A DNA stretch of 64,000 bases from Phycisphaerae bacterium RAS2 (GTDB lineage: Bacteria > Planctomycetota > Phycisphaerae > UBA1845 > UTPLA1). Numbering within the stretch: position 1 is the stretch's first letter; each line of letters starts with the position of its first letter. The DNA lies in contig CP036352.1 of assembly GCA_007753915.1 (NCBI GenBank), forward strand, positions 2,418,001 to 2,482,000, read 5' to 3'. Shown piece after piece: positions 9,468-48,328 of the stretch. A model generated the notes under the pieces. It saw nothing but the letters and a program-made list of their open reading frames with translations. It was not told the DNA's origin and ran no database searches. Position numbers and translations under genes: made by a program.

Positions 9468-11225
9468 TCAATCATTCCTCGACGCTCGCAAGTAATAGGC
9501 GCCCAGGGATTCCTGGGGCCGTTGCGTCAGGTTTGGCGGATAGGAAATATCCGGTTCCGGCGGAACGGGCGTGACTGCAATCTTTTCATAGATGACAAAC
9601 TGAATCGCGTCCGAGGTTTCGCGCGTTGTCTCGTGTATCCGGCGATAGGATAGATCCGACTCAAACCATTCGCGCGGCAACCGATGGAAATCACTCGCGC
9701 TGTAAGTTGAATCCCAGATCACGATGGTTCCGACCGGCATCGATGCGACGAGCCGCCTGCCTTTGTGGACACGAGGGTCTTCGGCCCAGTCGAAGTAATA
9801 CGCAAACCATGAATTCGTCGCGAAGATCGGACGATCCGAAAGACCCTTCGAATCCATCCAATTCACGATCTGCGCAACCGCGCGGGACGCGCTGTTCATC
9901 CGCAGCGGCCGCACGAGCGAGGCGAATTGAATCACGACCATGCCGGCCAGCCAAACCGCCACGAAGCGACGTATCGCGCGCCCCCGCGCCCCATCACCGA
10001 GCAAGCCGCCGAGTAGTACGATCAGGCACGTCGTCCCCGCGATCATCCGGATCAATACGAGGAATCGCTCATCGCGAATGCCCAATCGACCGGCCCGCCA
10101 TTCAAGCTCCACCGCAAGCCAGGCCACGGCCACGACCCCTGCCATCACGAACCATGGCGATCGAATGCCCGACCGTCTTCCCGTGGCAATCTCATGCTCA
10201 TTGCGCACCGACCATCCTGCCGCAGCGAGAATCGCTGCGAGCGGAGCAATTGTGACCATGAACCGCGCGTAGCCGCCGCTGGCAAAGATCCCCGCCGCCA
10301 TCACGATAATGTGCACAATGACGAACGTCGCGCACAACGCAGGGATGATCCAGGCGCGGGGCGCTGCGCCGCCGGCGTGCTGCGGAGATGCCGAATTCAA
10401 CGAATCGGAGTATCGGGCCGCTGCGACGATGCGCGCACCCGGTAGCGCCAAGGCCGCGAGCACAAACGGCACGGCCACGAACAGATGCGGCAGGTACGCA
10501 AGTACTCCGGTAGGTGGATATTGCGTCGAACCGGACGGCACGAGAAAGAGTTGAAACGGCCACGCTTGATAGGCCGCGAAGAATGCGACATTGTGCAGAA
10601 ACGGGGCAAGCAGTGAAGCGGCCAGCGCGAACAAGCGCCTCTTCACCGGCCCGCCGGACATCAGCACAGCCAAACCCCAGATCGGCAACAACGCCACGGT
10701 CTCATGCCGACTCACGAGCACGAGCGAAAACACGGCGGAGGCCGCGATGGCTCGTCTGCCCAGCAACAAATGGACCGCCGCCGTCAAATAGAACGCGGCG
10801 AAGTTCTCCGTTAACGTCGTCGCCGCGAGCAATGTATTCAAGGGCTGAACGTAACAGAGCAGCACGACCAGCCAACCGGGCGCGATTCTTAGTCGCCGCG
10901 CGATGTGCGCCGCCAGCAACGCCGACCCTGCCGTGACAAACGCTGATAGAATTCGCAGCGCGTGCCAGCCCGCCTGCGGTGAACCGATCCATGCGACCGC
11001 CGCCGCGGGAATCGTGAATCCCGGCCGGCCCCAGATGTTCAACATATAGCCGGGGAAAACGGCCGACCATCGAGCCATCAGGAAGTGCGTCAGATCGTCG
11101 TCGTGATAGGCGCCATCCGACCACGCGCCGAGGAGAATCGTGCCAAACAGTGCGACGGCCAGCACGGCGCGCGTACGGAATCGGTCGAGGTCATCCGTCG
11201 GTTTGTCTGGTGCGATGGCTGTCAA
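9468..11225 (-). CDS. GT-C fold membrane glycosyltransferase / mannosyltransferase-like protein
   Basis: A 585-residue polytopic inner-membrane protein with about ten hydrophobic segments spread over the first 430 residues, then a soluble C-terminal part. The first extracytoplasmic loop carries AYHDDDLTHFLMAR near 39-52; an acidic motif in this loop is the hallmark of lipid-phosphate-sugar-dependent GT-C transferases (PMT/ArnT/DUF2029 type). The WGRPGF that follows fits this loop. It would transfer a sugar from a polyprenyl-phosphate donor to an envelope acceptor. NAD kinase lies 54+ bases upstream on the same strand and is functionally unrelated. Acceptor and sugar are unknown. Confidence 0.75.
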   Translation of the reverse strand: MTAIAPDKPTDDLDRFRTRAVLAVALFGTILLGAWSDGAYHDDDLTHFLMARWSAVFPGYMLNIWGRPGFTIPAAAVAWIGSPQAGWHALRILSAFVTAGSALLAAHIARRLRIAPGWLVVLLCYVQPLNTLLAATTLTENFAAFYLTAAVHLLLGRRAIAASAVFSLVLVSRHETVALLPIWGLAVLMSGGPVKRRLFALAASLLAPFLHNVAFFAAYQAWPFQLFLVPSGSTQYPPTGVLAYLPHLFVAVPFVLAALALPGARIVAAARYSDSLNSASPQHAGGAAPRAWIIPALCATFVIVHIIVMAAGIFASGGYARFMVTIAPLAAILAAAGWSVRNEHEIATGRRSGIRSPWFVMAGVVAVAWLAVELEWRAGRLGIRDERFLVLIRMIAGTTCLIVLLGGLLGDGARGRAIRRFVAVWLAGMVVIQFASLVRPLRMNSASRAVAQIVNWMDSKGLSDRPIFATNSWFAYYFDWAEDPRVHKGRRLVASMPVGTIVIWDSTYSASDFHRLPREWFESDLSYRRIHETTRETSDAIQFVIYEKIAVTPVPPEPDISYPPNLTQRPQESLGAYYLRASRND

Positions 11226-11279
11226 TCGAGGAGAATCGTTTGATGAGTCGTGGCGCGCCTGCGGCCCCGGCAGCCGGCA

Positions 11280-12146
11280 TCACGCCGGCCCGGTAAAGCC
11301 CTGCCCCCATTTGAGCTTCTGCACGAGCAGGTCCCACTGGTGGCGATGGGGATTCATGACAAGCTGAACCTGTTCGGCCGACCGATGCACCAGGAGGCTC
11401 GCGCCGCCGGGGACCGGCCGCACGACCTGGCCGTCAAGCACGACTGCCACGCCGGCGCTGGTCTTGCGCACATCTACCTTCACGCGCACGTCCGGCGCGA
11501 CGACGATCGGCCGATGGGTCAGCGAATGGGGGCACAGCGGCGTCATAACAATGGCACTTACGTCGGGCTGCACGATCGGCCCGCCGCAGGCCATGTTGTG
11601 GGCCGTCGATCCGGTCGGCGTGGCGATGATCAAGCCGTCGCCGATGATGGTGGTCACCGGGTGGTCATCGATGCTGACCGAAAGCCCCACGGTGCGATAC
11701 GGGTCGCCGACACGCAGCACGCAGTCATTCAGCGCGATGCCGCGCCATGTGCTCCCACCGGCGTCCACGAGCAGCACATCGAGCAGCATCCGGCGGCTGA
11801 CGCAATCCGGATCGGTCAGAATGCGATCAAGCTGCGATTCGAACTCGTTCTCATTGAAGCCCGCGAGGTAGCCGAGCTTGCCGAGGTTGACGCCGATGAT
11901 CGGCACCTGCCGATGCTGCATGGCCTGGACGACGTTCAGAATCGTGCCATCCCCGCCGAGGGCGACAACGTAATCGGGTTTCGCCTCATTGATGGCCGCC
12001 GGCTTCCCATCGAGGTCGCTGCCGACGAGCAGACCCTTGCCGTCCAGCCAGCGGGCCAAGCGATCGAACGAGACCTTGACGTTGGCCTTCTGGGCATTGC
12101 CGACCAGAAAGAAACGCGGCGTCTGGTTTCGATGATTGGCAGCCAT
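11280..12146 (-). CDS. nadK: NAD kinase
   Basis: ATP-dependent phosphorylation of NAD to NADP in the cytoplasm. The protein has the diagnostic GGDGT in VVALGGDGTILNVVQAM, the NE/D-type motif in ALNDCVL, and GDGLIIATPTGSTAH, where Ala replaces the usual Ser before TPTGSTA. Length (288 residues) is normal. ATG at 12146 is preferred over an in-frame GTG at 12155. The N-terminal 60 residues are less conserved, as usual in bacterial NadK. It is divergent from the secretion/pilus cluster. Confidence 0.95.
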   Translation of the reverse strand: MAANHRNQTPRFFLVGNAQKANVKVSFDRLARWLDGKGLLVGSDLDGKPAAINEAKPDYVVALGGDGTILNVVQAMQHRQVPIIGVNLGKLGYLAGFNENEFESQLDRILTDPDCVSRRMLLDVLLVDAGGSTWRGIALNDCVLRVGDPYRTVGLSVSIDDHPVTTIIGDGLIIATPTGSTAHNMACGGPIVQPDVSAIVMTPLCPHSLTHRPIVVAPDVRVKVDVRKTSAGVAVVLDGQVVRPVPGGASLLVHRSAEQVQLVMNPHRHQWDLLVQKLKWGQGFTGPA

Positions 12147-12155
12147 GCGGACCAC

Positions 12156-12479
12156 ACCCCGGCTCGGATGCTAAGTGAAACAGAATCAACGTGTTATAGC
12201 TCATGCGCTGCCTCCCTGTCCACCTCGTAAGTACCCAAATGACGCTGAAACGACGCTCAATTCGAGGAGGATGTATCCCCTTTCCTGCTTCAATCCACGT
12301 GTCCGGACGAGGCGCAGAACCCATTGAAGCGACCGATAGTTAACGCGGATTCGAGCCATCTCGCGACCGCGCCTGGGCATAGTCAGACACCTTGCCCCGG
12401 CGAATAATGGAGGGGTCCGCAGGCGGGTCGCGCAAAGTGCAGCGCGGGATCGCCTCTTGCACGCACGGGAGCATGTTCG
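12156..12479. other. Divergent intergenic region between nadK and the pseudopilin cluster
   Basis: About 320 bases without a supported gene. It should hold the promoters of nadK (leftward) and of the GspF-led operon (rightward). I see no clear -35/-10 pair, terminator or repeat. Short leftward frames here are Arg-rich, lack a ribosome binding site and look like noise. Confidence 0.5.
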
Positions 12480-13784
12480 ATGCCGACGTTTCAATTCGAA
12501 GCGATGAATGCCGCGGGGCAGGAAATCAAAGACGAGGTCGACGCCCCGACATCCGAAGACGCGATCGCGAAGATTCGCGCGCAGGGGTACTTCCCGACCA
12601 AGGTGCGCCAGAAAGGCGGCGCGAAGAAGGCGGCGGCCGCCGGGCCGGCCAAGCGTCGAAGCACGGGCGGCATCGGGGGCGTGTCGCAGAAGCAGCTCAC
12701 GCAGTTTACGCGACAGTTGTCAACACTCATGGACGCCGGCCTGCCGATTCTTCGCTCGCTTCGAATTCTCGAGCAGCAACAGAAGCCGGGCGTGCTTCGC
12801 GTGGCGCTGCGATACGTCGCCGAGGACGTGGAGAGCGGCTCGACGCTGTCGGAGGCGATGGCGCGGCACCCGAAGGTGTTCGATCGGCTTTACTCGAACA
12901 TGGTCGCCGCGGGCGAGGCGGGCGGTGTGCTGGACGTGATTCTCCAGCGTCTGGCCGATTTCATGGAGAAGGCGCAGAAGCTGAAGCGTAAGGTGATCGG
13001 CGCGATGGTGTACCCGGTGTGCGTCATCACCTTTGCGTTGCTGATCGTGTCGGGCATCATGTACTTCGTCGTGCCGAAGTTCAAGACGATCTTCGCCGAC
13101 TTTGGCGCGAAGCTGCCGGGGTTGACCATGCTGCTGCTGGGCATGTCGGACTGGATGATCGGCAAGACGACCGATGCCAACGGCAAAGAAGTGGACATGC
13201 TGATCCCCGGCTGGGCATACATCGTGGTCTCGCCGATCGCCTTCTTCGCGGCGTACAAGCTAATTCGACAGTTCAAGGAAGGCCGCTACGCGATGGATGT
13301 CGTGAAGATCAAGGTGCCGATTCTCGGGACCATCCTGTCCAAGACATCGGTCGCGCGTTTCACGCGTACGCTTGGGACGCTCGTGGCGGCCGGTGTGCCG
13401 ATTCTTGAAGCGATCACGATTACCAAGGACACATCCGGGAACGAGGTTTATGCCCGGGCGCTGGCCAAGGTGCACGACGCGATTCGCGAAGGTGAATCGT
13501 TCGCCACGCCGCTCAAGGCGACCAAGGTGGTGGACAACCTCGTCGTCAACATGGTGGACGTCGGCGAAGAGACCGGCGACCTCGACAAAATGCTGATTAA
13601 AGTGGCCGACAACTACGACGACGAAGTCGAAACGCTTGTGGCCGGCCTCGTCAGTCTGCTTGAACCCGTGATGGTCATCGTGCTGGGTGTCATGGTCGGT
13701 TTCATCGTCATCGCGCTGTTCCTGCCGATGGTCAGCCTGGTCAACAACCTGACGGGCGGCGGCGGCGGCGGCGGGGAACTGTGA
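12480..13784 (+). CDS. Type II secretion / type IV pilus inner-membrane protein, GspF/PilC family
   Basis: A 434-residue platform protein that anchors the assembly ATPase and drives pseudopilus or pilus growth. The N-terminus MPTFQFEAMNAAGQEI is typical of GspF/PilC. Two tandem T2SSF domains (about 75-200 and 290-410) each begin with conserved FTRQLSTLMDAGLPI and FTRTLGTLVAAGVPILEAI. Membrane segments lie near 180-200, 245-265 and 385-410. The C-terminus ends in a Gly-rich tail (seven consecutive Gly). It heads a rightward operon of pseudopilins; no GspE/PilB ATPase, secretin or prepilin peptidase is in the window, so those parts are elsewhere. Confidence 0.95.
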   Translation: MPTFQFEAMNAAGQEIKDEVDAPTSEDAIAKIRAQGYFPTKVRQKGGAKKAAAAGPAKRRSTGGIGGVSQKQLTQFTRQLSTLMDAGLPILRSLRILEQQQKPGVLRVALRYVAEDVESGSTLSEAMARHPKVFDRLYSNMVAAGEAGGVLDVILQRLADFMEKAQKLKRKVIGAMVYPVCVITFALLIVSGIMYFVVPKFKTIFADFGAKLPGLTMLLLGMSDWMIGKTTDANGKEVDMLIPGWAYIVVSPIAFFAAYKLIRQFKEGRYAMDVVKIKVPILGTILSKTSVARFTRTLGTLVAAGVPILEAITITKDTSGNEVYARALAKVHDAIREGESFATPLKATKVVDNLVVNMVDVGEETGDLDKMLIKVADNYDDEVETLVAGLVSLLEPVMVIVLGVMVGFIVIALFLPMVSLVNNLTGGGGGGGEL

Positions 13785-42631: not shown

Positions 42632-44617
42632 TTATAGCTGCGGGACCGGCTCTCGGGTCTCCGCTTTTTCACGGGATTCCATTGGTTCGCGCGGGCGCGG
42701 TTTGCGACTGATCGTCTGCGGCTGCGGCCTGGGCTTCATTTCCTGCTGCAATGCCATGTTGGCCATACCGTTGAGCAGCGGGCCGTATTGCTTCAGCACT
42801 TCGTTCAGATTCGGCAAGCCGGCAAGACTCGTACGCACACTGAATTGGCTCGGCCCTTGTTCGACCGCGATGCAGGCCACGGTGTCGCGGCAGTAACCGG
42901 CCACCTGTTGCGCCACCATCGCGACGCCCTGATCGCCGGAATCGACCGCCACTGCGGCACAACGCCCGACGTGCGCCACGCCCATGATCGTGCAATCGGC
43001 CGGAAGCTTTGCGATCACCGCGCCGAGCTGCTCGTCCTTGAGAATCGACTCGCCCTTGGTCGATGCGCGAATCGCGGATTTCAATGCCGTGCGCGTCAGG
43101 CCGAGCGCGATGCAACCGTCAAGCTCGGCAAGGTAAATTGCGCCGACCGACGGAATCTGATACGCCGTGACCGGCGTCTCGCCGATCTTGAGCTGCCGCG
43201 ACGGAGACGGCTCGTGCCCTTCCACGAGGCCCGGCAGCGAAAGAAATTGATCCCACAAGGCCCGGCTTCGCGCGACATCGTTCACGGCGATGATCATGCC
43301 CACATTCGGAACGATCTCCAGCTCCGAGTCCCCTTCGCCCTTCTGCATCTTGCCCGGCACAATGAACGCGCAGACTTCCTGAATGTTGCCAAAGAACTCA
43401 CGGCCGATGTCCAGTGCGCTGATCGCCGGTGTCGCATTCGGAGACGCAAGCGTCTCCGCGGAATTCGCTCGGCCGTTCGACGCAGTGTCCAGTGCGAAAT
43501 TTGCCACCGCCGGATTGAGGCCGAATCCGATAACCGCAGCCGCGTCCATCGGGACCTTCGCGAGGCCCTTGCGCGACATCGGCGGGAGGCGTGTGAGGTT
43601 GTACGCGATGCTGCGGTGATTGTCGGCCAGGCGCAGCGTGATGCGCGAGTTGAGCACGCCATTCTGAATGCCCCACGAATACGACGCCCAGCGGAAGCTC
43701 TTGAGGTCGGCAACGGCGTCGACGACGGCCATTTCCTTGCGGTCGCCCTCGCTCATGTGCCCTTGTGCAACTTTCAGAATCGCCTGAATGTCGGCCAGCG
43801 CAAAGATCGTTGCGCCGTCGCGTGAGGCCATCAGTTCGGACATGTCCGGTCGCGAAGCCAGGGACGGTGCGCTGCTGTCGTTCAGGCGCGTTACCACGCC
43901 CTCGACCAGGTCGCGACTGGAGCCGACAATCAACAGCGCCTCGGTCAGCACGCCGACGACGCGAACGCCCTCGATCGTGACGCCGAAGGTCGGCAGGTCC
44001 ATGATTTTCTCGGTGGTCGGTGCGAATTGAAACGCCGTCTCAAGCAGACCGCGCAGGAGATTCACGTCGCCGTGATGAATGACCATCACGCCGCGCGGGT
44101 TGTCGCCGCTCTCGGGATCGATTCCCGTGATGGAAACCGCCGCGCCGCCGAAGCTGCGCAGCACTTCAAACAATGCCGGACTGATGACCACTTGCTGCGG
44201 AACGTGAAAGAGCGCATTCGCGTCCTTGCTCGGTCGTTGTGCGAGCACCTGGCTCATGTCCTTGGTCGTGAGGCCTACCATCGCGGCCAGTTTTTCGAAC
44301 ACCTCCCCGGGCCGGCTCAATTCGACATAACCCAGCGCGTCGGGCGGCATGATCGTCGCGAAGTTTTGCGCCACGAGGTGATCGCGGCAGCGGTTGGCCC
44401 CGGCTCGCGCCACGGCTTGCTGACCCGCCGGCAAGTCGGATTCGATTGCCGCGAGGTACAGCTCGCGCGCAGCGGCGTAATCGCGATCCTGATGTTCAAG
44501 GAAGTAGGCCCGGTACAGGTCCGGCCGTTCGGCGTAAGTCTCCGCGGCCGGCATCAGGGTGGCAGTGAGTGATGCAATGGAGAACGTCGCTCGGATCAGA
44601 AGATAGGACGCGGTCAT
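42632..44617 (-). CDS. Exported protein of unknown function (DUF3352-like)
   Basis: A 661-residue protein with a signal-like N-terminus (MTASYLLIRATFSIASLTATL) and cleavage plausible after PAAETYA. Residues 30-75 hold one TPR-like helix pair (YRAYFLEHQDRDYAAARELYLAAI). The remainder alternates LxxVxG beta and helical segments like DUF3352-type proteins (e.g. LRGLLETAFQF, LIVGSSRDLVEGVVTRL, ALGLTRTALKSAIRA). The C-terminal 40 residues are Pro/Arg/Glu rich. GGAGG sits six bases before ATG 44617. It probably resides in the periplasm; substrate and role are unknown. Confidence 0.72.
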   Translation of the reverse strand: MTASYLLIRATFSIASLTATLMPAAETYAERPDLYRAYFLEHQDRDYAAARELYLAAIESDLPAGQQAVARAGANRCRDHLVAQNFATIMPPDALGYVELSRPGEVFEKLAAMVGLTTKDMSQVLAQRPSKDANALFHVPQQVVISPALFEVLRSFGGAAVSITGIDPESGDNPRGVMVIHHGDVNLLRGLLETAFQFAPTTEKIMDLPTFGVTIEGVRVVGVLTEALLIVGSSRDLVEGVVTRLNDSSAPSLASRPDMSELMASRDGATIFALADIQAILKVAQGHMSEGDRKEMAVVDAVADLKSFRWASYSWGIQNGVLNSRITLRLADNHRSIAYNLTRLPPMSRKGLAKVPMDAAAVIGFGLNPAVANFALDTASNGRANSAETLASPNATPAISALDIGREFFGNIQEVCAFIVPGKMQKGEGDSELEIVPNVGMIIAVNDVARSRALWDQFLSLPGLVEGHEPSPSRQLKIGETPVTAYQIPSVGAIYLAELDGCIALGLTRTALKSAIRASTKGESILKDEQLGAVIAKLPADCTIMGVAHVGRCAAVAVDSGDQGVAMVAQQVAGYCRDTVACIAVEQGPSQFSVRTSLAGLPNLNEVLKQYGPLLNGMANMALQQEMKPRPQPQTISRKPRPREPMESREKAETREPVPQL

Positions 44618-44836
44618 TTCATACCTCCAGGCCAGGCTCGCAGAAATCACTCAAGACGATGCAGCTCGACGAATCACGCACGGCGACAGGGACCGGGCGC
44701 GCAGTGAGAACGCAAACACCTGCCCCATATTGTAACGATTAGACGGAATATTCTTTTCGGGCGCGGAAATTCTGCGGAGTTTGCGATAAGGCAAAGGCCC
44801 GGGGCGGCGTGAAAAGCGACCCCGGAATTACCCCTG

Positions 44837-46510
44837 TTAGGATGTCGGCTGGTGTGGCCGGCCCGTTGCGGGGTTGAGCGGAAGCGAAGGGCTGCCGCCG
44901 GGGACAACGCCCGATCCGGAACCGACCCCCGGTGCGCCGTGAAAGACCGGCATACCGCCCAGGGGCAGCGTCATTCCCATCACAGAATGCGAGGGCAATT
45001 GAGCCGTCGGGATCGCCTGGAGCGCGATTTGACGGAGCGCCGCTTCCGCGGGGGCGAAATCGCGATCTTCCTGTTCGCGGACCGCATCGCAACCGGCCGC
45101 CAGGTGCTGCATCAGTCGCCAGAATCGAACCCAGATTCGTTCGGCAGCCGCGGCGTCGCACGCCACGTCGTATGCGGCACGAAGACCGGACAAGGCGACG
45201 TGGGCCGGCATTCGCGCTTCACCATTCGATTCAATCCAACGGTAATCCGCATCGCTCGAGCTCGACGCTTGTGACGCGAGCAGCCATTCACGCACACGCT
45301 GGCAGCGCTGTGCGTCGTTCGCCAGGAACGGCTCGACGACATCCACAAGCCGCGCCGATCCCAGCGCCGTCATGGGCGAAAAGGCTGCAATCTGCGCGAC
45401 GGCGCGGCAGTCCATCGTCCAGCGGCCCCACGCAGCACCAAGCGACGCACCGTAACGCTCAAAATCGCCAAACGTCTGACGAAGCGACCGCTCCCAGTGG
45501 TTCGCGGCATCCGCGAAGTTCAGCAGGTGCAAAGTCTGAATCATGACTTGCCACCGAATCAGCGGCGGCGGCGCGAACGATGCCGGCGAGACCGTTGCAA
45601 CCGTCGCGGGCGAGGCGCCCCATTGTTCGACTGTTCCGCTCAAGTAGGCCGGTCCAAGCTTGATCGTGGCGAACACATCGGCGAAAACGCAATGGCTCCA
45701 TCGCGCCCAAATCGGCGACGAGCTCGGCCATGCCGCGGCAGTCGATGCTCCGCCCCCCCCGATCGCTGCAAATCTCGATTCGATTTCGTACGTCAGATTG
45801 AGATCACTCTCAATGCATCGCCCCGCCTCGTGAGCGAGGTCCACCAGGTTCCACGGCTCGGCCAATCGCCGGCGGGGAACCGCGACCAGGGACAACGGCA
45901 GCTGGCGGCCGCAGCAGGATGCGGCCACCGCGTGCTGACGCCAGGAGTGAATGCTTTCGGCGTCGTCGGTGACATAGGCGAGCGGCGAGCGCGAGAGCGC
46001 CTCGCGCGGAATCAACCCGCGCTGATGCGCCGCCTTGACCGCCGGCAGATAGAGGCTGCGCAGGATGGCATCGATCGCGCAGAGCTTTTGGTGATACTCG
46101 TGGCTGGCGTGCTGCGCAAGGCAACGGAAGAAGAAGCCGAGCGTTTCTTCGTTCGGTTCGACCACGCGGTACTCGATGTCCGAGAGTACGGCCACGCACT
46201 CCTGGCCGAGCCCCTGTTCCAGCAGCGCGGCTGCGTGATCCAATCGCGCGCGAATTTGCTCAAGGACAAAGTCGTACCACTTCGTTACCGTCTGAATCTG
46301 CGCGGAGACCGGCCGCAGCCGCGACCGCGACAATTCCAGGTCAGCCTGAAAGGCCGACTCCTCGGCCGGCGTCATCCGACCGAGGAGCGGCGTCTTCCAG
46401 TCATGGGGCACATGGTCGTTGTAAAGCGCCCAGCGCCGGAGGCAGGTTTGCAGTTCCACCGCCCTGCACCGCAGGCTGCTCATTCGTTGCCGAATCAGGT
46501 TCATCGCCAT
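44837..46510 (-). CDS. Unknown protein with degenerate metallopeptidase-like core
   Basis: A 557-residue soluble protein. Residues 206-300 recall planctomycete zinc peptidases whose core reads HExxH ... E-V-F-A-D ... GPA. Here the zinc helix is H227-E-A-G-R231, with the second histidine replaced by Arg, and the third-ligand position is C274 in HCVFADVFATIKLGPAYLS. So the fold may be kept without a normal zinc site. The N-terminal 160 residues are helical, and the C-terminal 50 are Gly/Pro/Ser rich and probably disordered. AAGGA precedes ATG 46510. It follows the uncharged protein gene by 63 bases on the same strand. Confidence 0.6.
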   Translation of the reverse strand: MAMNLIRQRMSSLRCRAVELQTCLRRWALYNDHVPHDWKTPLLGRMTPAEESAFQADLELSRSRLRPVSAQIQTVTKWYDFVLEQIRARLDHAAALLEQGLGQECVAVLSDIEYRVVEPNEETLGFFFRCLAQHASHEYHQKLCAIDAILRSLYLPAVKAAHQRGLIPREALSRSPLAYVTDDAESIHSWRQHAVAASCCGRQLPLSLVAVPRRRLAEPWNLVDLAHEAGRCIESDLNLTYEIESRFAAIGGGGASTAAAWPSSSPIWARWSHCVFADVFATIKLGPAYLSGTVEQWGASPATVATVSPASFAPPPLIRWQVMIQTLHLLNFADAANHWERSLRQTFGDFERYGASLGAAWGRWTMDCRAVAQIAAFSPMTALGSARLVDVVEPFLANDAQRCQRVREWLLASQASSSSDADYRWIESNGEARMPAHVALSGLRAAYDVACDAAAAERIWVRFWRLMQHLAAGCDAVREQEDRDFAPAEAALRQIALQAIPTAQLPSHSVMGMTLPLGGMPVFHGAPGVGSGSGVVPGGSPSLPLNPATGRPHQPTS

Positions 46511-46573
46511 CGTCCTTCCTGGGATTCACCCCAACGCATGGACCCCTTCATCATCAAGCAATCGTCCGCGCGA

Positions 46574-47671
46574 TCAGTTGCAGCATGTCGGCGAATAGGC
46601 CGACGGTGTCGTGCAATAACCGCTGTTGATGAACGGCGTCGTGTTCCAGCCGGCGAACGTGTTCATGGAGTGGCCGAACACGCTCGGAGTCCGATTGAAC
46701 AGCCACGGCGTGTTCACCACGTTGTTCCACGGAGTCGGAACCGGGTTCGTGCCGTACGCCGCCGCCAGATTCCAGGCGGGGTTAAACGTTCCGAAGGAAA
46801 CACCCGGATTGAAAGCGTTGACCGGAAACCCGTTGTAGCTGTTCCAGTTGTTCAGCCACGGGTTGCCGACGGTGTTGAAGCTCGGATTCACGAACGACGT
46901 CGGCGTGCCGACGTTCGACGCGAAGAAGGGGTTGACGGTGCTGAAGTTCGCCGCGCCGAACGTGTTGAACGGCGTCGCGAGGTTCGGGATGGTGTTGTGG
47001 AAGTTGTTGGGAAAGCAAAAGGGATTGGGTTGGCCTCCCCACAACCCGACCGGCGAAGAGAACATGTGGGGAATGGTGTTCACGTACGGGAAGCCCGCCT
47101 GGGTGAAACCGTTGAAGCCGATCGCCGGGTTAAACGTCGGGATCACGCTGGAGAACGGATGGCTGACCCAGTTCGGCGTGTTGACGTACGGGTTGAACGC
47201 GTACGGGCTGGTGATCGGCGTGTTGAAGCCGAACGTATTCGGCGTGCCGAAGGCGGGGATCCCGAAGCCGTTCACACCCATCCCGAACGTGTTGATGGGA
47301 GCGGTGACATACGGATTGACGGTCGGGACTTGGCCGTAGCCCGTGAACGAATTCACGTTGCAGCCCCACGGCGTGTTGACGATCGGAGTCGGATAGTACG
47401 ACGGGATGCCGAACGTCGTCGGCGTGTTGCAGACGTAGGGATTGACGCCGATGGTTCCAAACGTGGGGTTGTACACACCGGTCGTCTGAACGGGAATCTG
47501 TCCGATCGGGTTGAACGCCGTGGGCGTGCCGTAGTTCACGCCGGGAATGCCGGTCGTGGGGATCGCGCCGACGTTGTTCTCGGGGATCCGCGACTGGCCG
47601 TTCATGCCGGGGGCCTGGCCCTCCAGCGTGGCGGTGCCGCCCTGAAATCCATAAGGCTGAAACATAGACAT
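46574..47671 (-). CDS. Low-complexity Asn/Pro/Phe/Gly/Thr-rich protein almost free of charge
   Basis: A 365-residue protein with only four charged residues (E17, R28, E31 and one Arg near 324), no Lys and no Asp. It is built of irregular repeats of VNTP, NPF/NPY, FNT, GTP and FG units. Cysteines are scattered, with CC two residues from the C-terminus. No signal peptide or membrane span is evident. AGGAG lies just before ATG 47671. Composition resembles silk-like, prion-like or FG-repeat phase-separating proteins, or spore/coat structural proteins; no homologous family is recognised. It is upstream of, and likely cotranscribed with, the degenerate-metallopeptidase gene. Confidence 0.75.
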   Translation of the reverse strand: MSMFQPYGFQGGTATLEGQAPGMNGQSRIPENNVGAIPTTGIPGVNYGTPTAFNPIGQIPVQTTGVYNPTFGTIGVNPYVCNTPTTFGIPSYYPTPIVNTPWGCNVNSFTGYGQVPTVNPYVTAPINTFGMGVNGFGIPAFGTPNTFGFNTPITSPYAFNPYVNTPNWVSHPFSSVIPTFNPAIGFNGFTQAGFPYVNTIPHMFSSPVGLWGGQPNPFCFPNNFHNTIPNLATPFNTFGAANFSTVNPFFASNVGTPTSFVNPSFNTVGNPWLNNWNSYNGFPVNAFNPGVSFGTFNPAWNLAAAYGTNPVPTPWNNVVNTPWLFNRTPSVFGHSMNTFAGWNTTPFINSGYCTTPSAYSPTCCN

Positions 47672-48328
47672 TCTTCTCCTTGCCCGCAGGCAAAAGCGGT
47701 GCGGCGGGGCTGGCGTTGTCGGTCCTTCCGATTCGACCCGGTGACCGCCCCGGGTCTCAACACAGCCGCGCCCGATTCTCTGTGAAGGCCGGATTCCTTT
47801 TTCCGCCGCGCTCGCCGGCGAGTGCCGACTCAACGCAAAGCGATCTAATAGGTTGTCCGTCCGCCATTTATCGACGGTGATGACCGGCCGCCATGTGCGA
47901 ATGCACAGTCGCTTGAATAAGAATTCATTCGCGCAAATGGAGCCGTGAGAGGCGTCACAACCCCCTAGTCCGTAGGATGACGCCAACCCGTCACGGCAAT
48001 ACTGAAATGACGGCTTCCGGGCTTCGACCAATCGCCATACAGCCCGCCCGATACCCCAAATGCCGGATGAAACTACTTGACGTCGACCGATTCGGCACAA
48101 GATCGCCGCCGATTCCATCGAAGGGCCGGCCGGGCCGCGCAGTTTCGGCGCATGCCGTCCGCGACGCCGCCGCGATTCTTAGTACTGGAAATGCGGCATC
48201 CTGCCGATGCCAAAACGAACCGCATTATCAGTGCGATTATCCCTGCTGCTGCCCGCTCGGCCCGCATTCGGAGGCCGCCCTCCCCCGTCCGGGCTGAATT
48301 CCGGCTGCAAAGTCACTAGAATGCGCCC
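47672..48328. other. Divergent intergenic region, about 650 bases
   Basis: No supported gene. It should hold promoters for the leftward low-complexity gene and the rightward LON-domain gene. A perfect 12-bp palindrome CTCGCCGGCGAG lies at 47811-47822. Frames running through the region lack ribosome binding sites and recognisable sequence. Confidence 0.5.

Follow-up and report, generated by a model that had tools for sequence, protein, structure and literature searches.

A nearly uncharged protein and a predicted pseudo-zincin form a conserved two-gene unit in one family of Planctomycetota

Introduction

The planctomycete Phycisphaerae bacterium RAS2 carries a gene, here called LC, for a protein of 365 residues that is almost devoid of charge, and to judge from sequence and synteny this gene is one half of a conserved two-gene unit whose other half encodes a helical pseudo-zincin. 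The pair lies in the stretch of DNA analysed here, 64,000 nucleotides of contig CP036352.1 (assembly GCA_007753915.1, positions 2,418,001 to 2,482,000 of the forward strand), hereafter referred to as the window, in which positions are counted from the first letter. In our judgement, bacteria rarely make such nearly charge-free chains of several hundred residues, and no description of this gene pair was found among the openly licensed papers in PMC. The physical principle proposed for the two-gene unit is known from eukaryotes. The reading that we favour, with a probability of roughly 0.48, is that LC is a self-associating polymer with the pseudo-peptidase as its controller.

Planctomycetota are a phylum long discussed for unusual cell compartments. 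If LC self-assembles, the pair would represent a minimal bacterial combination of a sticky disordered protein and a dedicated controller, small enough to be rebuilt in E. coli, and it would provide a test of whether Nup98-type physics, with no charge and with aromatic stickers, has arisen outside eukaryotes. The partner, for its part, would be a clean case of a peptidase turned pseudoenzyme and tied to one low-complexity protein.

The LC gene and its product

The features of the LC gene, all on the minus strand, are the following.

46574..47671, minus strand: LC gene, encoding a nearly uncharged protein of 365 residues rich in Asn, Pro, Thr, Gly and Phe (from the reading of the frame, dN/dS and counterparts beside 13 of 13 partner genes)
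47676..47681, minus strand: Shine-Dalgarno sequence AAGGAG of LC, separated from the ATG by four bases
47579..47671, minus strand: conserved N-terminal residues 1-31, which comprise the tag N24-G25-Q-S-R28 and three of the four charged residues; [N/D]G-x(2-3)-R is present in 13 of 13 homologues
46694..47578, minus strand: charge-free interior of 295 consecutive residues with irregular NP-aromatic, P-aromatic and FG units
46577..46585, minus strand: C-terminal CCN; all 13 homologues have a Cys at one of their final three positions

The LC frame opens with ATG and closes with TGA, and its translation bears out the first-pass annotation, which had been made from the sequence alone and had counted only four charged residues: there is no Lys and no Asp, and the two Glu (E17, E31) and two Arg (R28, R327) stand against 14.0% Asn, 13.7% Pro, 12.3% Thr, 11.0% Gly and 9.9% Phe. 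The irregular VNTP, NPF/NPY and FG units described there come to three VNTP, six NP-aromatic (two of them NPF) and nine FG in the window protein. The terminal CCN and the good ribosome binding site that had been read from the sequence are both in place, the near-terminal Cys as a family feature and the N-terminal tag being new here, and the reported lack of a signal peptide agrees with our finding no hydrophobic leader visible by eye at the start of LC. Neither Pfam nor NCBIfam gave a match to the window protein at E <= 0.1. How unusual the composition is can be seen from the window and 17 related stretches (18 in total, 339,951 bases), which contain 790 stop-to-stop frames of at least 150 amino acids: a 150-residue stretch with at most two charged residues occurs in 12 of these frames, and all 12 are LC or its syntenic counterparts. 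The composition is thus far beyond chance.

The frame also evolves as a gene. Compared with the sister species (G001), with which it shares 81% protein identity, LC has a dN/dS of 0.31 and not a single gap across 364 aligned codons, and in a second species pair (G014/G006) the dN/dS is 0.16, with two gaps that comprise whole codons only. The frame is open at 13 of 13 loci; as chosen, the start codon is GTG in G001 and ATG in the other 12, and it is preceded by AGGAG at 12 of the 13 loci and by CGGAGG at the remaining one, so that all contain GGAG. On these codon-level comparisons LC is a real protein-coding gene under purifying selection, and the frameshifts in relatives that the first-pass annotation had named as the mark of a spurious frame are absent from the two aligned pairs. 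The idea that LC is such a frame, a by-product of composition or of an antisense gene, can draw on a long plus-strand ORF that overlaps it, but the dN/dS values, the restriction of gaps to whole codons, the Shine-Dalgarno sequence ahead of 13 of 13 starts and the N- and C-terminal features kept at 13 loci leave it with a negligible probability, and we regard it as ruled out by codon-level selection together with the conserved termini. The plus-strand ORF itself (45497-47785, 762 amino acids), which runs antisense to both LC and its partner and could be mis-annotated as a gene, is in our judgement probably no more than a shadow left by GC richness at third codon positions.

Codon usage offers a hint about expression. 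The share of C-ending Phe, Asn and Tyr codons is 0.78 in LC, compared with 0.52-0.74 in eight other genes of the window, the starts being self-chosen. This bias is only suggestive. Low synonymous divergence, another possible sign of high expression, is seen for LC in one species pair (dS 0.33 vs 0.68-0.99 for three neighbours) and not in the other (0.55 vs 0.49 for the partner).

A family revealed through the partner gene

A direct search with LC gave matches in 3 of the 61 genomes, one of these being the source of LC itself, and none in the named genome collection, which taken alone suggests an orphan gene. This impression was overturned once the neighbouring gene was used as an anchor. A single-sequence search with the partner returned 13 places in 12 of the 61 genomes, all in the window's own taxonomic family within the Planctomycetota; the partner is thus present in 12 of 17 family genomes, twice in one of them (G012, whose second unit is denoted G012b) and in one copy in the other 11. 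At all 13 places an LC gene of the same orientation precedes the partner, 64-145 nt away from the partner's MN start; in the window, 69 bases separate the LC stop codon from that start. The upstream frame is very low in charge and rich in Asn, Pro, Phe, Gly and Thr in 12 of the 13 cases, that of G012b being Pro/Phe-rich and less extreme, and all 13 proteins have the N-terminal tag and the near-terminal Cys in common. Direct sequence search hides this family, since LC evolves too fast for it, and only the linked, slowly evolving partner exposes it.

The genes beyond the pair vary between genera, and the pair alone is constant. The suggestion of the first-pass annotation that the degenerate peptidase downstream is the partner of LC, together with its advice to check the synteny with that protein, is therefore well supported by the retention of the pair at 13 of 13 loci in 12 genomes, with LC upstream at each. 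A profile built from the LC N-terminal segment (12 rows, G012b omitted) finds, as it must by construction, one strong place in each of its 12 source genomes (E 2e-20 to 5e-14), and in the five family genomes that have no partner it gives nothing below E 0.04. Matches at E 0.04-1 were judged to be chance, three such loci having been inspected and none being LC-like, and the same judgement was passed on two marginal matches (E 0.005-0.007) that a search of the whole order, with its 114 genomes, gave outside the family; the frames concerned have 85 and 136 amino acids. A full-length LC profile brought no additional copies to light among the 17 family genomes; as it misses the known copies of G001 and G002, which are not among its rows, its negatives are weak. 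Both genes are missing from 5 of the 17 family genomes, of which two are <90% complete. Outside the family, no full-length partner was found in the order (114 genomes), in a draw of 397 genomes from the class or in one of 294 from the phylum, and the matches obtained there (G108, G592, G115, G213 at two places, G308 and G388) are partial. Ten loci in the named collection all belong, by title, to Planctomycetota MAGs, among them four Phycisphaerae/Phycisphaerales and one Planctomycetaceae. Viral contigs yielded no relative, and an origin from a mobile element was accordingly set aside.

Conserved ends and a drifting interior

LC homologues range from 365 to 517 amino acids, and their interior drifts in sequence while its composition is held. 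The N-terminal segment reads about GGTATLDPQxxGMNGxxRIxE in the closer members, and the Arg of the tag falls at residue 24-28 in 12 of the 13 proteins and at residue 37 in G012b, where DG replaces NG. Charged residues number 2-6 per protein in 12 of 13, corresponding to 0.3-0.8% R+K, 0.3-1.1% D+E and 0.5-1.6% in total (0.5% for each sign in the window protein), and 34 in G012b, from which it follows that the absence of charge is not strictly required. This second unit of G012 (L028, about 11191-12657) encodes a paralogous LC with 22% proline and repeats such as DPFKAFDPLKAF, a Pro/Phe-rich polymer of a different, charge-bearing composition. In three other genomes (G015, G013 and G002; L005, L020 and L024) the LC interior contains, at about residues 290-400, a piece of similar appearance in which [GS]IDP is followed further on by an Arg; it accounts for two of the few charges outside the N-terminal segment.

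Within the interior the order of the units is non-random. When the 13 proteins were pooled and compared with within-protein shuffles, a test in which the counts are non-independent owing to the relatedness of the sequences, NP[FWY] was observed 94 times vs 12.1 in the shuffles, [VI]NP[FWY] 36 vs 1.3, TP[FW] 64 vs 8.1 and FG 120 vs 46.9; PP, in turn, is avoided (13 vs 120.4), as are adjacent hydrophobics (295 vs 518.3). Even spacing of the aromatics is significant (p <= 0.02) in 5 of the 13 proteins only, with p = 0.25 in the window protein and a tendency toward clustering in G015, and it is therefore not claimed as a family trait. A regular repeat or solenoid was rejected, the spacing of aromatics, Pro, Asn and Gly having no clear period; what is seen instead is exclusion at short lags and scattered small peaks. 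The AlphaFold2 model of LC has a mean pLDDT of 41.8 and no residue at or above 70, from an 11-row alignment whose shallow depth also lowers confidence; this is consistent with LC being intrinsically disordered, which is how we take it.

The partner, a degenerate zincin

The partner gene and the two positions on which its assignment turns are as follows.

44837..46510, minus strand: partner gene, encoding a predicted helical pseudo-zincin of 557 residues; start MAMN, with the conserved start MN at 46504
45818..45832, minus strand: HEAGR, the degenerate HExxH of the partner; none of the 13 homologues keeps the second His
45689..45691, minus strand: Cys274 of the partner, in the column that holds the putative third-ligand Glu in six distant relatives

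In each of the 13 partners R, L, A or V stands where the second His would be, and C, V, T or I fills the aligned column downstream, compared with Glu in 6 of 6 distant relatives, where the motif context suggests that this Glu is a zinc ligand. By motif, then, the partner is a pseudo-zincin and not an active zincin, and in calling it degenerate the first-pass annotation was right, both residues being lost in 13 of 13 and kept in the six distant relatives. The His-Glu pair of the old motif is kept in 10 of the 13 partners, so that residual metal binding or some other chemistry remains conceivable. The partner is much more conserved than LC: its mean column identity is 60% (13 sequences, over their length), compared with 28% for LC (11 rows), and its dN/dS is 0.23 in the G000/G001 pair, that is, between the window and its sister species, and 0.03 in G014/G006.

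The AlphaFold2 model of the partner (pLDDT 79, pTM 0.79) is nearly all helix: long helices make up the N-terminal part (residues 2-163), the HE motif lies in the central part, and the helical C-terminal part carries a low-confidence tail. A signal peptide could not be made out by eye. The partner protein of the window has no match in Pfam or NCBIfam at E <= 0.1, and the weak Pfam matches scattered among the 13 partners (TPR_14 and PPR_2 with three each, YfdX, DUF2605 and DUF6208 with one each; best E 0.011) were disbelieved. The partner profile found no PDB sequence at E <= 10, and Foldseek gave no match to the model at E <= 0.001. Among structural comparisons, weak LTA4H rows (Z 5.4-5.5, rmsd 4.6-4.7, 148 residues aligned, model 228-474 on chain 289-530) could be reconciled with a zincin core but sit at the noise level for helical models; the VIA rows (best Z 8.3, to a designed protein) involve mostly partner residues 1-134 and were dismissed as chance level for helical bundles. 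That a family is missing from these rows carries no weight as evidence.

The six distant relatives are Planctomycetota proteins (L059, L060, L061, L062 with two genes, and L063) that have an intact HExxH and the segment W-x2-E-x3-D. Their matches to the partner profile (E 5e-8 to 1e-20) fall within positions 122-402 and take in both the HE motif and the W-x6-D segment, and Pfam assigns them no family with a believable score, so that they apparently constitute an undescribed zincin peptidase family related to the partner. Near these proteins, which keep the HExxH and the downstream Glu, no LC-like frame was present in the five stretches read; loss of the site and the link to LC thus go together in the partner family.

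Proposed mechanism and alternative explanations

In the reading that we favour, LC would be a disordered, charge-depleted sticker-and-spacer polymer, with aromatics in NP-F/Y/W, TP-F and FG units acting as stickers and stretches of Asn, Thr, Gly, Pro and Ser as spacers, that condenses or polymerises in the cytoplasm. Self-association would be expected of a disordered chain so hydrophobic and so free of charge. The conserved N-terminal tag NG-x(2-3)-R, home to most of the charges of LC, may serve as a docking or sorting signal, and the near-terminal Cys might cross-link, bind metal or anchor the chain. The conservation of the partner, its adjacency and its dead site suggest a binding protein for LC: a helical former zinc peptidase, minus two ligand positions, that would no longer cut LC but bind it, perhaps holding an extended Pro/aromatic peptide in the former substrate cleft, and that would thereby nucleate, cap or limit LC assembly. 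Self-assembly, disorder, cytoplasmic location and the role of the Cys are what we infer, and the binding of LC by its partner is deduced from genetics.

Three other explanations give the same pair a different purpose. LC may be an exported material, that is, a surface or extracellular fibre, sheath or adhesive, in which the N-terminal segment would act as a non-classical export tag, the Cys would cross-link and the pseudo-peptidase would be an export chaperone. The tag and the near-terminal Cys in 13 of 13 proteins, the hydrophobic, charge-poor chain and an interior that diverges fast, as is typical of exposed proteins, would all suit such a role, but neither the 13 LC starts nor the partner has a signal peptide visible by eye, and no recurring secretion gene was noticed in the first 50 residues of the neighbouring ORFs of 11 stretches, which makes export unlikely in our view. 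It is also conceivable, if rather improbable, that the chief role belongs to the pseudo-peptidase, as sensor or scaffold, and that LC is a disordered peptide ligand or lid that fills that protein's dead active site and has no function as a material. Inactive enzymes commonly become binding proteins, and the partner is by far the better conserved of the two (60% over 13 rows vs 28% over 11 rows); yet a chain of 365-517 residues with a strong order of aromatic units exceeds the need of one cleft, and the length of LC and the number of its units vary while the core of the partner is stable. An addiction-like arrangement, in which LC is an inert aggregator, or one that is toxic when unchecked, and the partner its dedicated antagonist or chaperone, appears very improbable: a two-gene unit that is doubled in one genome and absent from 5 of 17 family genomes has the look of such a pair, but at full length the unit is confined to one taxonomic family among the genomes searched, has no relative in the viral contigs searched, stands in one copy in 11 of 12 genomes and has a slowly evolving partner. 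Set beside these, a self-assembling material, as the first-pass annotation had inferred, under the control of a pseudo-peptidase is our best guess for LC; nothing observed speaks directly for the coat or compartment former that the annotation had considered possible.

Comparison with known systems

The closest physical parallel is provided by the FG domains of Nup98, which contain 0-0.5% DE and 0.1-2.3% RK with one FG per about 12.5 residues (PMC4283134), are about 500 residues long with spacers of G, T, S, A, N, Q and P and a near-globular hydrophobicity, and phase-separate spontaneously, also when expressed in bacteria (PMC4283134, PMC9579204). LC resembles them in being hydrophobic, charge-depleted (in 12 of 13 proteins, G012b being the exception), probably disordered, built with the same spacer letters, 365-517 residues long and furnished with aromatic units. 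It differs, apart from being bacterial, in that GLFG is absent from 13 of 13 LC proteins and FxFG present in four, in the density of FG (one per about 41 residues in the window protein, 9 in 365 amino acids) with many NP-aromatic units, and in its higher proline (13.7% in the window protein). Measured against the published ranges, D+E lies above 0-0.5% in 7 of the 12 low-charge proteins, and FILVMP amounts to 37-42% in 12 of 13 and to 54% in G012b vs 18-26%. No anchoring module like the autoproteolytic Nucleoporin2 domain was found by Pfam at E <= 0.1 in the window LC, and a 2010 survey reports no Nup homologues in planctomycetes (PMC2951903). The resemblance to FG-nucleoporins proposed by the first-pass annotation therefore holds for the charge, which is about as low as in Nup98, and fails for the units, since GLFG is lacking, FG is sparse and NP-aromatic units stand in their place; an FG nucleoporin in the proper sense, with dense FG or GLFG, LC is not. 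That this lineage has independently evolved a Nup98-like charge-depleted condensate or gel, forming a dedicated cytoplasmic compartment or selective barrier with NP-aromatic stickers and, as organiser, a repurposed dead protease able to recognise the polymer, in effect a bacterial membraneless organelle encoded by two genes, is a bolder reading that we hold to be unlikely.

Two further likenesses suggested at the outset, to prion-like and to silk-like proteins, turned out to be poor fits. Classical prion-like domains combine high Q+N with low proline. LC is Asn-rich and has aromatics with uncharged spacers, as in the yeast Q/N-rich and FUS/hnRNPA1 types, but its proline is 11-22%, its Asn+Gln 9-18% and its aromatic spacing even in 5 of 13 proteins only, and the window LC is not attached to a recognised domain. 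Spidroin-like silks have poly-Ala blocks or GPGGX repeats, and neither AAAA nor GPGG occurs in any of the 13 LC proteins. Both identities were thus rejected on their defining feature. Two further phase-separating accessory proteins, compared here by description, are CsgF of curli export (PMC10133297) and PYCO1, a pyrenoid linker that links Rubisco in a diatom (PMC10288592). They share with the proposed LC the use of sticker residues to drive assembly and of a disordered linker that works with structured partners, and they differ in their curli and Rubisco settings.

Neighbouring genes and the leader hairpin

No secretion, curli or Rubisco gene was noticed to recur beside the pair, as judged from the opening 50 residues of the ORFs around it, for 11 of the stretches, and a Pfam scan of the window neighbours only. 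Divergent from LC in the window lies a gene for a stand-alone Lon substrate-binding domain (PF02190, 48329-49042, plus strand), which adjoins LC in 6 of the 13 stretches and was not found within the other seven, some of which are short. The partner is followed by a gene for a 672-residue protein (42632-44650, minus strand) without a Pfam or NCBIfam match; its conservation in comparison with the sister species is strong (dN/dS 0.09), and beyond the window genome and G001 none of the remaining 11 stretches yielded it.

The leader of LC contains one further element.

47680..47693, minus strand: possible hairpin TTGCC-TGCG-GGCAA, abutting the LC Shine-Dalgarno sequence; in relatives this place is taken by stems that pair likewise but differ in sequence

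A perfect stem of at least 5 bp ending 0-3 bases before GGAG is found in 8 of 13 LC leaders vs 4 of 101 other ORFs preceded by a Shine-Dalgarno sequence (Fisher 1e-6), and a stem of at least 4 bp in 10 of 13 vs 10 of 101 (Fisher 6e-7), figures for which the 13 leaders are related and the 101 controls are mechanical ORFs of the same stretches, at least one being an internal start in an LC frame. Five genomes share the stem TTGCC/GGCAA, while TCGCAC/GTGCGA, GCCG/CGGC, TTTCCGA/TCGGAAA and TCCCGA/TCGGGA each occur in a single genome; the 4-bp stem of G012b is arranged differently, and the leaders of G007, G014 and G006 (3 of 13) have none. When the ten leaders were folded from -60 to +12, the whole stem appeared in the MFE structure of 5, and from -40 to +12 the stem formed in full or short of a single pair in 8, the stem being absent from both folds in the window (G000) and in G012b; the pair probability of the window hairpin is 0.00.

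The pattern TTGCC-N(3-6)-GGCAAGGAG occurs 17 times across the 17 genomes, compared with 4 for the reversed control, and as only 5 of them stand at LC and 12 elsewhere, the hairpin was rejected as an LC-specific control element. Five of the 12 other matches precede another frame of at least 150 amino acids, and the hairpin-plus-Shine-Dalgarno pattern is perhaps a wider translation element in the family; it may tune LC output in some genomes, a suggestion that we offer as a lead outside the proposed mechanism and that leaves the odds given to the explanations above as they were. One of the frames behind the pattern elsewhere (among L104-L120 without L110, L111, L114, L115 and L116) begins MTDKIIGDGITFDDVLLVPARSG and is presumably that of an IMP dehydrogenase.
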